Below are positions 695 through 5,789 of a stretch of 7,083 bases of DNA, piece by piece. The position numbers were made by a program, and so were the translations under genes. Position 1 is the first letter of the stretch. The number at the start of each line of letters is the position of its first letter. The stretch is from Planctomycetota bacterium. GTDB lineage: Bacteria > Planctomycetota > Phycisphaerae > SM23-33. The notes under the pieces were generated by a model, which saw nothing but the letters and a program-made list of their open reading frames with translations, did not search any database and had not been told where the DNA came from. Location of the stretch: the NCBI GenBank assembly GCA_003644335.1, contig QNCB01000062.1:1-7083 (forward strand), given 5' to 3'.

Positions 695-1123
695 GTGAAA
701 CCGAGAAGCCTACGAGGGTTGGCCTGCGGGCCTATGGGATTTGGGGTCTGCCTGTGCGCGGTAGTTGGCAATGACAGGACGGGCGAAGCGTCTCAAGTCA
801 GTAAATCTCTGGCAGCGAGTCTGCGAGACGGTTGCGTTCTGGAGTTTAGCTCCTTGGCGGACATCGTCAATTGCACCCCAGCTGGTAGTTTGGACCTGCT
901 GGTGCTGACAGCGGGGCAAAGCCCAGCGGAGACGGGGGAGCTATTGCGATGGGCGCGGTGCAATTGGCCTGGCTGTCGTACAATAGTGCTCTGCCAAGAC
1001 AGCGATCTTGAACTCGAACGAGTGGTACGGAGCAATGGCGGGCTGTTTTTCGTTCGCTCCGTCAGTCCAGAACAATGGCATGCCCTGTTGCAAAATGTGG
1101 ATCGCACCAGGCTTGGCGTCTGA
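695..1123 (+). CDS. Small receiver-like (CheY-fold) protein lacking the phospho-acceptor
   Basis: The product is about 142 residues. Its pattern alternates strands and helices as in a (beta/alpha)5 receiver domain: GVCLCAVVG, a helix ending SLAASL, CVLEFSS, LADIV, LDLLVLTAG, a helix at AETGELLRWA, RTIVLCQDS, a helix at ELERVV, LFFVRSV, then PEQWHALLQNV. The strand-3 position that carries the phosphorylated Asp in true receivers reads VLTAG, and the strand-5 Lys is replaced (FFVRSV). It is therefore best called a pseudo-receiver; partner and output are unknown. I chose GTG 695 because GGAG (684-687) lies 7 nt upstream. TTG 677 and ATG 734 are in-frame alternatives, and ATG 734 would begin almost at strand 1. 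It stands alone behind a sigma-54-type promoter. The fold call is my reading of the sequence, not a database match. Confidence 0.6.
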   Translation: MKPRSLRGLACGPMGFGVCLCAVVGNDRTGEASQVSKSLAASLRDGCVLEFSSLADIVNCTPAGSLDLLVLTAGQSPAETGELLRWARCNWPGCRTIVLCQDSDLELERVVRSNGGLFFVRSVSPEQWHALLQNVDRTRLGV

Positions 1124-1430: not shown

Positions 1431-1446
1431 TGGCACGCAGGTTGCA
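1431..1446 (+). promoter_or_regulatory. Sigma-54 (-24/-12) promoter, full consensus
   Basis: TGGCACG-CAGG-TTGCA fits the sigma-54 consensus exactly and is preceded by the preferred C at 1430. GG (1432-1433) and GC (1444-1445) are 10 nt apart. Transcription should begin near 1457. No recognisable gene follows. The transcript would instead run through the structured region ending at the terminator at 1862-1909. An AT-rich stretch just downstream (ATATATA, 1446-1452) would ease melting. Confidence 0.7.
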
Positions 1447-1456
1447 TATATACTAG

Positions 1457-1909
1457 CGAAGCAAGGCGGCGAGTTGCAACGGTGCAGCAAGCTGAAAAAC
1501 TTAAAAGAGGCAGTATTTTTGACAAGTGAATAATCCGTCTTAGGACGGAAAGTCGAGGAGCCTATAACGGGTGTCGCTTGCAAGAGTGGCGTTCGTTACC
1601 CGACGAAGAGGTTTTTGAGCCTCTAACGGGGATTCTCACTATCGGCAACGCATACAGCGGAGATGAGCGCCTGCTGGTCGCGATAACTATCTCACCCCTC
1701 CTTTCTTGGGATAGTTCTGTCGGAGAAACCCCCGATGGGTAGAGTACCTCGTTGTTAAAGAACACTGCGGGATTGAGCACCCGCGGGATTTGGCTGGTCT
1801 CTCCTCCTACCAGTCATGTTCGTAAAACAGCGTGTTTGAGAGGGGTCTCTACCAAGGCGAAGGGCGATAATGTCAGGTCTGAGCAGCCTGCGTATCGCCC
1901 CCTTTTTTT
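1457..1909 (+). ncRNA. Candidate sigma-54-driven structured RNA, about 450 nt
   Basis: The region lies between a consensus sigma-54 promoter and a strong intrinsic terminator. It has no plus-strand ORF of credible size; the frame open to 1533 shows no domain pattern. Local helices are dense: TCCGTC/GACGGA (1534-1549), CGGGT/ACCCG (1568-1602), AGAGG/CCTCT (1607-1624), AACTATC/GATAGTT (1685-1716), GCGGG/CCCGC (1767-1784), CTGGT/ACCAG (1794-1813), AGAG/CTCT (1839-1850) and the terminator stem. A possible pseudoknot lies at 1720-1740. GAGCCTATAACGGG (1558-1571) recurs with one change at 1617-1630. I do not recognise it as tmRNA, RNase P RNA, 6S RNA, SRP RNA, rRNA or a riboswitch. The 5' end is inferred from the promoter, and processing near 1530 is possible. 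Confidence 0.5.
1862..1909 (+). terminator. Strong Rho-independent terminator
   Basis: GGGCGATA (1862-1869) pairs perfectly with TATCGCCC (1893-1900), followed by CC and seven T residues (1903-1909). An inner arm CAGG/CCTG (1874-1877 with 1887-1890) caps the stem. This is the best terminator in the window. It lies at the end of a region with no ORF, which implies that an untranslated RNA is made and ended here. Confidence 0.85.
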
Positions 1910-2342: not shown

Positions 2343-3182
2343 ATGGAAGCTATCACAATCTATCTTCAGCGAGTAGCTACCTACAATCCGCTGGTAGTTG
2401 CGACTCAGCTTGTGCTTATCGGCATTGTGGTTTGGCTGGTGATGCGGTTTCTGCGGGGCACGCGCGGAGCCGGGCTGGTAAAAGGAGCGGCACTGCTCCT
2501 GGCGGCGGTTTTTATTTTCATCCGCCTGCTGCCAAAGACCGACGAGTGGAAACGCATCGAATTTCTCTACGGCAACTTCCTCCTCTTCGCCTTCATGGCC
2601 TTCGTGGTCGCCTTCCAACCCGAACTGCGACGAGCACTGATATCCATAGGCCAGGCCCGGCTGTTCCGCAACCGCCATGTCGAAATCGAAGACATGGTGG
2701 ACGAAATTATCCACAGCCTGGGGTTTTTGTCCCGCAATAAAATCGGAGCTATAGTCGCTATGGAGCGGTCGGTTGGGCTAGGGGCGCTTATCGAGTCCGG
2801 CGTGCAAATCGACGCTGAGGTTACCTCGGACTTGCTCAGCACGATTTTCTATCCAGGTTCAGCGATGCACGACCTGGGCGTAATCATTCACAACCAACGG
2901 GTAGCCGCGGCTGGTTGCCAGTTCCCGATAGCAGAAAGCGAAGAGGTCGACGCCTCGCTTGGCAGCAGGCACAGGGCAGCTCTGGGGTTGTCCAACGACT
3001 CCGACGCGGTGGTGTTGGTCGTCAGCGAAGAAACCGGCAGAATATCGCTAGCCTGCGAGGGTCAACTCTACATAGGCTTGGATATTACGGGCGTACGCGA
3101 CATGTTGCTGGACCTCCTGGCTCCGGGCCGGGCCAGGCCTCGCCGAGGTCAAGTATCCTCAGCCAAGGGGGGTGCAGCATGA
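2343..3182 (+). CDS. cdaA: Diadenylate cyclase CdaA (DisA_N domain)
   Basis: This membrane enzyme condenses two ATP molecules to cyclic di-AMP. The product is 279 residues. Three predicted membrane helices lie at about 18-37, 43-63 and 76-91, followed by the family signature FQPELRRAL (91-99). The catalytic DisA_N domain spans about 110-250: IGAIVAMER (134-142), SGVQIDAEV (152-160), SAMHDLGVII (173-182), GSRHRAALG (207-215) and SEETG (228-232). The RHR motif is intact. The usual DGA triad after the histidine reads D177-L-G, which keeps the metal-binding Asp but changes its two neighbours. Length and order fit CdaA. ATG 2343 lacks a clear Shine-Dalgarno site. The stop overlaps the cdaR start by ATGA, so the two genes form an operon. 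glmM, the usual third gene in Firmicutes, is not found downstream in this window. Confidence 0.93.
   Translation: MEAITIYLQRVATYNPLVVATQLVLIGIVVWLVMRFLRGTRGAGLVKGAALLLAAVFIFIRLLPKTDEWKRIEFLYGNFLLFAFMAFVVAFQPELRRALISIGQARLFRNRHVEIEDMVDEIIHSLGFLSRNKIGAIVAMERSVGLGALIESGVQIDAEVTSDLLSTIFYPGSAMHDLGVIIHNQRVAAAGCQFPIAESEEVDASLGSRHRAALGLSNDSDAVVLVVSEETGRISLACEGQLYIGLDITGVRDMLLDLLAPGRARPRRGQVSSAKGGAA
3165..3172 (+). promoter_or_regulatory. Ribosome binding site of cdaR
   Basis: AAGGGGGG lies within the 3' end of cdaA, 6 nt before the ATG at 3179. It is the strongest such site in the window and decides the cdaR start against upstream in-frame codons inside cdaA, the earliest at 2915. Confidence 0.7.
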
Positions 3183-4265: not shown

Positions 4266-4323
4266 CGCGAAGGAACGCACAGTTCACCATGAAGCACATG
4301 AAGAGCATGAAGTTGTTTTTTGG
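4266..4323. repeat. CATGAAG interspersed repeat, copy 2, with CGCGAAGGAACGC block
   Basis: CGCGAAGGAACGC (4266-4278) matches 2161-2173 at 12 of 13 positions. It leads into three 9-nt units with CATGAAG (4284-4310), which match 1132-1158 at 26 of 27 positions. A T-run follows (4315-4320). The element begins 20 nt after the cdaR stop. Two kinds of dispersed block occurring together suggests a composite interspersed repeat rather than a gene. Confidence 0.6.
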
Positions 4324-5747: not shown

Positions 5748-5789
5748 AGATTTTGGATTGTGGATTGTGGATTGTGGATTGCGGATTTG
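5748..5789. repeat. Heptamer tandem repeat GGATTGT
   Basis: Consecutive 7-nt units read GGATTGT three times (5755-5775), then GGATTGC (5776-5782) and GGATTTG (5783-5789), preceded by the related AGATTTT (5748-5754). The array starts 9 nt after the proA stop and covers the most likely start codon of the next gene. Such arrays vary in copy number by slippage, and each 7-nt change would shift the frame upstream of the GTG. Confidence 0.75.

Follow-up and report, generated by a model that had tools for sequence, protein, structure and literature searches.

A structured RNA family with repeated loop motifs and sigma-54 boxes in one order of the Phycisphaerae

What is transcribed from a sigma-54 promoter with no evident gene behind it is the question raised by a stretch of planctomycete DNA 7,083 nucleotides in length, referred to here as the window. 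A sequence-only reading had proposed that a perfect TGGCACG-N4-TTGCA element drives an inducible structured RNA of about 450 nt that ends at a strong intrinsic terminator and belongs to no assignable family. The element is an exact match (1431-1446, plus strand; TGGCACG-CAGG-TTGCA, identified by pattern and shuffle scores), with CAGG as the spacer between its -24 and -12 parts, and the pattern TGGCAYRN4TTGCA occurs twice in the window (at 607 and 1431) compared with 0.01 expected from 200 shuffles. The other occurrence, TGGCATG-N4-TTGCA at 607-622 on the plus strand, lies upstream of a gene we call pRec; this first sigma-54 unit (unit 1; box at 607, ORF at 695-1123) is absent from the earlier reading. 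Judged from the -12 GC, transcription from the second box would start at ~1457, and the RNA (~450 nt, 1457-1909, plus strand) would end in a T tract.

The segment 1457-1911 has a predicted folding energy of -171.3 kcal/mol, compared with -148.4 +/- 6.2 for 100 shuffled versions (z -3.7, with 1 of 100 as good). By parts, the z scores are -4.2 for 1530-1625, -4.2 for 1737-1856 and -4.1 for 1862-1903, and only -0.4 for 1631-1735 taken alone. The earlier description of some 400 nt dense in local helices agrees with the score for the whole RNA and with the strong covariation of its helices (see below), and the terminator is present as described (1862-1909, plus strand), with a hairpin at 1862-1899, an apical UGAGC loop at 1880-1884 and seven T residues at 1903-1909. 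Four plus-strand ORFs of 15 codons or more fit completely inside 1457-1909; they are 15, 15, 19 and 54 aa long and all have GTG or TTG starts, and tblastn comparison of these four with the other 49 copies of the RNA gave nothing better than E 0.28. A mechanically called ORF of 103 aa (1222-1533) reaches into the RNA leader, and its start is upstream of the promoter. The Rfam 15 covariance models (4227 families) gave no match to the window at E ≤ 5, and at the loci of eight relatives the only match was a sub-threshold one to a microRNA (27.8 bits, gathering threshold 54). A known Rfam class, a conserved small ORF or a lack of covariation among homologs would each speak against a structured RNA; all three were looked for and none was found. 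We judge the structured RNA family to be almost certainly real.

The RNA contains two modules, A and B, with a shared plan in which a closing helix holds first a UGAGC-loop hairpin and then one whose loop is rich in C and U (often CUCCUCC); UGAGC also occurs in the loop of the terminator hairpin, which follows both modules. All elements are on the plus strand. Module A (1628-1732) has a closing helix at 1628-1637/1723-1732 with one mismatch, and includes hairpins H1 (1655-1676, loop AGAUGAGCGC at 1661-1670) and H2 (1685-1716, loop CCCCUCCUUUCU at 1695-1706, which resembles a 16S rRNA 3' tail). Module B (1738-1853) is closed by helix P0 (1738-1744/1847-1853) and includes hairpins H3 (1765-1786, loop AUUGAGCA at 1772-1779) and H4 (1791-1816, loop CUCUCCUCCU at 1799-1808), and a conserved linker, AAGGCGAA (1854-1861, from the alignment and pattern counts), precedes the terminator. 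The 5' part of the RNA contains a leader element, TTGACAAGT (1519-1527), a conserved motif, GAGGAGCC (1555-1562), and a 15 bp hairpin, H0 (1565-1598), at the position of which the relatives have variable hairpins (by eye). RNAalifold recovers only two hairpins in the 5' part. The GAGGAG of GAGGAGCC is complementary to the CUCCUC loops, and we have considered that the two might pair over a long range within the RNA.

Covariation among homologs is strong in both modules. In an alignment of 43 copies of module B and the terminator, 95.8% of cells are in standard pairs, 30 of the 35 pairs have changes on both sides, and the covariation score is 0.585 compared with 0.228 for shuffled and 0.06-0.10 for slid controls; fitting this alignment to the model favours pairing, but the effect is large. 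RNAalifold finds much the same helices in this alignment. Module A, aligned with MAFFT in 22 copies (out of 30 chosen from 50), is 94.5% paired, with both-side changes in 14 of 17 pairs and a score of 0.506 compared with 0.255 shuffled and 0.09-0.14 slid, the covariation of its helix 1 being partly circular because the helix ends were picked for complementarity. Cognate strands of the module A closing helix pair better than non-cognate ones (8.95 compared with 7.04), but for 7 of 36 copies, that of the window included, roughly half of the non-cognate partners or more pair equally well. The corresponding values for H1 are 6.34 and 5.21 (0 of 5000 permutations), its motif being present in 29 of the 48 copies examined.

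Five copies were used to build a covariance model (R1) for the 3' half of the RNA, which identified 51 places in 31 of the 397 genomes in a sample of the class Phycisphaerae. When applied to a single order it matched 31 of 38 genomes, the same 31 as in the class sample; all 38 are within that sample, and therefore none of the 359 genomes outside the order matches. The seven order genomes without a match are counted as they stand, whatever their completeness. Only one of 392 genomes in a sample of the phylum is matched, by R1 and by model R2 alike, and it is the seed genome (G001). As far as these large searches reach, the RNA is thus specific to one Phycisphaerae order, with the proviso that they used strict filters and scored six candidates per genome, such that distant relatives could be missed. 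Several genomes have multiple copies. Under R2, 19 family copies score 44.8-128.9 bits, bar one L084 copy at 26.5; a viral origin was considered and rejected, the 4 and 7 pattern matches in IMG/VR scoring at most 18 bits with this model, which is the level of chance. A weak partial copy (L017:6195-6329, on contig C9 of G001; 48.7 bits) retains the terminator part and is located after unrelated genes. Genomes G058, G095 and G204 (loci L073, L078 and L081) contain three successive units, spaced by ~390 nt and apparently transcribed together, with a T tract only on the last. By pattern match, the first units at L073, L078 and L081 have neither the UGAGC loop of H3 nor the CUCC loop of H4, as if the two were lost together. 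The family is previously uncatalogued in that it has no match among the Rfam 15 families and that none of the titles listed in literature searches concerns this RNA. A Rhodopirellula-1 motif is listed for Proteobacteria and Planctomycetes in a passage of PMC2864571 that gives no Rfam number for it.

The pRec gene (695-1123, plus strand) codes for a 142 aa pseudo-receiver protein and has a GTG start and a Shine-Dalgarno sequence, GGAGA, at 684-688. The protein matches nothing in Pfam or NCBIfam, and searches of 5.8 billion proteins returned 7 members (E ≤ 1) and 63 members (E ≤ 0.001), with the family profile weakly matching the receivers of NtrC-type regulators (E 4e-4). An AlphaFold2 model has a (beta-alpha)5 receiver fold (mean pLDDT 80.5), for which the best Foldseek match has an E value of 5.7e-5, and TadZ/CpaE and CikA pseudo-receivers are among the matches listed. 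Residue 72, which ends strand 3 of the model and occupies the phospho-acceptor position, is Thr in the window; at least 90% of 41 sequences have Ala there. As modelled, pRec is a receiver-fold protein that lacks the phospho-acceptor Asp and is predicted to be phosphorylation-dead. It has the receiver fold in common with NtrC-type receiver domains, TadZ/CpaE and the CikA pseudo-receivers, but unlike those domains it is free-standing, has no phospho-Asp and has no Pfam or NCBIfam match. In unit 1 of L016 (5681-6613) the first codons of pRec overlap GAGGAGCC and the last codons overlap TTGACAAGT, the bases of which there encode the C-terminus (LTS); on this reading of the sequence, pRec appears to overlap the RNA's 5' part or to be inserted into it, as though it lay nested within the gene for the RNA. 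The start of pRec likewise overlaps GAGGAGCC in L051 and, in the window, its counterpart GAGAAGCC (703-710, plus strand, inside the first codons; seen in the sequence).

A pRec gene is upstream of the RNA in 29 of the 38 loci examined, mostly 100-400 nt before the model match, and in many it seems to share one sigma-54 unit with the RNA; the claim that the promoter serves no gene is therefore right for some copies and wrong elsewhere. Two of the other nine loci begin at the RNA (L061, L074) and seven have no pRec nearby (L052, L053, L055, L069, L071, L083, L085). By genome, 29 of the 38 order members have both RNA and pRec and six have neither; the three discordant genomes have RNA alone (G083, and also G220, where it lies at the start of a contig) or pRec alone and with a stop (G012). 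The window is a derived form, with one sigma-54 unit for pRec (607; 695-1123), to which no RNA is attached, and another for the RNA alone, R2 finding only 1738-1913. Further upstream, 17 of the 38 loci have a gene for a sigma-54 activator, and a Pfam check of two of these activators (L066, L070) shows Sigma54_activat and HTH_8 domains without a receiver. Next to these, at the two loci checked (L066, L068), are a histidine kinase and a GGDEF response regulator oriented away, and at least 12 of the 38 loci have a cluster that contains a GGDEF response regulator. The window contains no activator gene, nor was one clustered at L015, L016, L051 or L054 (the L015 and L051 contigs end close to pRec), so an activator would act in trans there.

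The -24/-12 box that characterizes sigma-54-dependent sRNAs as a functional class (Qrr/GlmY type) is found in the window and in six other RNA-only units (L015, L016, L051, L052, L054, L085), in all seven with a score reached by at most 1 of 300 shuffles. Among the 29 regions upstream of pRec, 16 exceed the pooled 95% shuffle level (15.5) by sigma-54 score, L065 and L078 at another site; by eye 24 of the 29 loci have a GGC-type box close to the start of pRec (GGCA in 21), located just 3' of the mechanically called start in L062, L067 and L080. Many of these boxes have TTGT in place of TTGC, often as TGGCACG-N4-TTGT. The RpoN DNA-binding domain is encoded by 33 of the 38 genomes of the order. 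Sigma-54 control is not universal to the family because no box was found at five copies without pRec (L053, L055, L069, L071, L083), which are possibly paralogues under other promoters. L069 and L071 have TTGACG/TAGAGT pairs that match the sigma-70 consensus at 9 of 12 positions, a weak signal because the best scores at sigma-54 units also reach 8-9. Where the box is present it makes sigma-54 control of the RNA likely, and together with the neighbouring sigma-54 activator in relatives it leads us to infer that the RNA is inducible.

Downstream of the RNA the window contains dacA (2343-3182, DAC domain), a YbbR-like gene with a match under the cut-off, and an aldehyde-dehydrogenase-family gene taken for proA. 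The nearest relatives of the dacA product are from Phycisphaerae/Planctomycetota genomes, in keeping with the planctomycete look of the window. A link between the RNA and this c-di-AMP cyclase gene was considered and set aside; the neighbourhood is probably coincidental because the two nearest dacA relatives, L001 and L002, lack the RNA upstream of dacA. Whole-genome DNA searches of the same two genomes locate tandem pairs of the RNA's 3' part at other sites, where there are copies that have sigma-54 boxes of their own and end in the same terminator. No tRNA or tmRNA was found in a search of the window. Other small features include a repeat, CACCATGAAGCRCATGAAGAGCATGA, after pRec (1133-1158) and again ahead of the proA-like gene (4285-4310), a 37-nt imperfect inverted repeat (73% complementary) at 2151-2253 between the RNA and dacA, and short direct repeats of GGATTGTGGATTGTGGATTGCGGATT type (5755-5787) at the start of the last ORF, which runs open-ended from 5753 to the window end.

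The loops are the most regular feature of the family. Fifty copies were compared, namely the window's and 49 of the 51 R1 places (omitting the lone copy on G001:C9 and G181:C302). Counted as simple patterns in each region, with no loop-by-loop check, UGAGC is present in the H3 region of 43 and the terminator region of 46, a CUCCU-like string in the H4 region of 44, the linker in 44, and the T tract in 39. In the 47 copies used for enrichment, UGAGC occurs 3.13 times per copy compared with 0.74 in shuffles and UCCUCC 2.74 times compared with 0.17, exceeding 95% of shuffles in 31 and 32 individual copies respectively. The window RNA by itself is enriched in UGAGC (4 compared with 0.59) and not in CUCC (3 compared with 1.78, P 0.26). 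The C/U loops resemble an anti-Shine-Dalgarno sequence.

We tentatively favour an order-specific, sigma-54-induced regulatory RNA. It would be transcribed as a stand-alone molecule of ~450 nt from a start near 1457 to the terminator at 1862-1909. The locus of which it would be the output can, in relatives, also include genes for a histidine kinase and a response-regulator diguanylate cyclase, as well as for a sigma-54 activator that has no receiver and a pseudo-receiver detached from it. Firing of the activator would make the RNA accumulate, supposing that it is expressed and that this activator acts on this promoter. Its repeated loops would make it a multi-site binder, since identical loops on freely varying stems, in repeatable units, are expected of a titrating or multi-site pairing RNA; the UGAGC loops would most likely capture an RNA-binding partner, and the CUCCUC loops may pair with purine-rich, Shine-Dalgarno-like sequences in target RNAs, by titration or direct pairing, thereby retuning translation. 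The UGAGC loops could instead be tertiary contacts. A more ambitious version, which we regard as possible and rather less probable, is a new class of signal-coupled modular RNA, in which a dedicated activator and the detached pseudo-receiver would control repeatable two-hairpin units (one UGAGC loop and one anti-Shine-Dalgarno loop each), the dose would be set by the number of gene copies and of units per transcript, and the RNA would form an arm of a two-component/cyclic-di-GMP pathway, with pRec possibly its RNA-binding partner.

The closest of the known systems is Qrr/LuxO of the Vibrionaceae. Qrr sRNAs are ~100 nt in length, have C-rich pairing regions and are present in several copies per genome; this family resembles them in the latter two respects, and the layout of sigma-54 box and adjacent activator recalls LuxO-Qrr. 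The RNA could thus act solely as a Qrr-type trans-acting sRNA, its CUCCUC loops blocking the Shine-Dalgarno sequences of several mRNAs and its UGAGC hairpins being structural, a reading in keeping with the CUCCU-like motif in 44 of 50 H4 regions and the strong UCCUCC enrichment. We consider it somewhat unlikely: UGAGC is conserved as well as the C/U loops are, and the window RNA, with no Rfam match to a Qrr or any other model, is roughly four times longer than Qrr, has two repeated covarying modules and often adjoins a pseudo-receiver gene. As is proposed for this family, a sigma-54 activator controls a sigma-54-dependent regulatory RNA in the case of Qrr1, the expression of which requires sigma-54 as well as LuxO and SypG as activators according to PMC10162802. 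The position of pRec, upstream in 29 of 38 loci and mostly at 100-400 nt, would also suit a cis-acting 3' element governing stability or translation of the pRec mRNA, with RNA-only copies as duplication by-products; yet RNA-only units retain the structure and their own sigma-54 boxes, the window and L051 have separate boxes for pRec and RNA with none of the RNA attached to pRec, and G083 has the RNA without a pRec match, which makes this improbable.

OLE, GOLLD and ROOL are large, complex, conserved structured bacterial RNAs, and in those respects the family is like them. Its size, modular repeats, tandem units and complementary GAGGAG/CUCCUC motifs would fit such an ornate scaffold or multimer, to which we give little credence: there is no Rfam match (and so none to OLE, GOLLD or ROOL, assuming that Rfam 15 includes these), three units in a row occur in only 3 of 31 genomes, and the family differs from them in its sigma-54 linkage and its limitation to one planctomycete order within what was searched. 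CsrB/RsmZ sponges have repeated identical loops on variable stems and a variable number of sites, all of which this family shares. A sponge for CsrA would also accord with the presence of CsrA in 33 of the 38 order genomes and with the tie of csrA to sigma-54 promoters in Planctomycetota reported in PMC12316311. But the repeated loop here is UGAGC and not GGA, and such a sponge is very improbable because GGA (9.21 per copy compared with 9.75 shuffled) and ANGGA (3.87 compared with 4.38) are not enriched in the 47 copies while UGAGC and UCCUCC are; at H1, moreover, the first G of GGA is A in 5 of 22 copies, and we dismissed the sponge on these counts. Least probable by far is a chance fold or functionless mobile repeat: multiple copies in several genomes could suggest the latter, but both are already contradicted by covariation exceeding both controls, and retention in 31 of 38 order genomes and conserved neighbours stand against them as well.

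To our knowledge, few regulatory RNAs have been described in the planctomycete phylum, to which this locus adds a large, highly structured RNA family that has covariation support and is present in 31 of the 38 genomes of one order. Because the RNA is associated with a sigma-54 activator, with a histidine kinase and diguanylate cyclase at the loci checked, and with a receiver predicted to be phosphorylation-dead, it would provide a concrete and testable example of a pathway in which signalling yields an RNA and not a protein.
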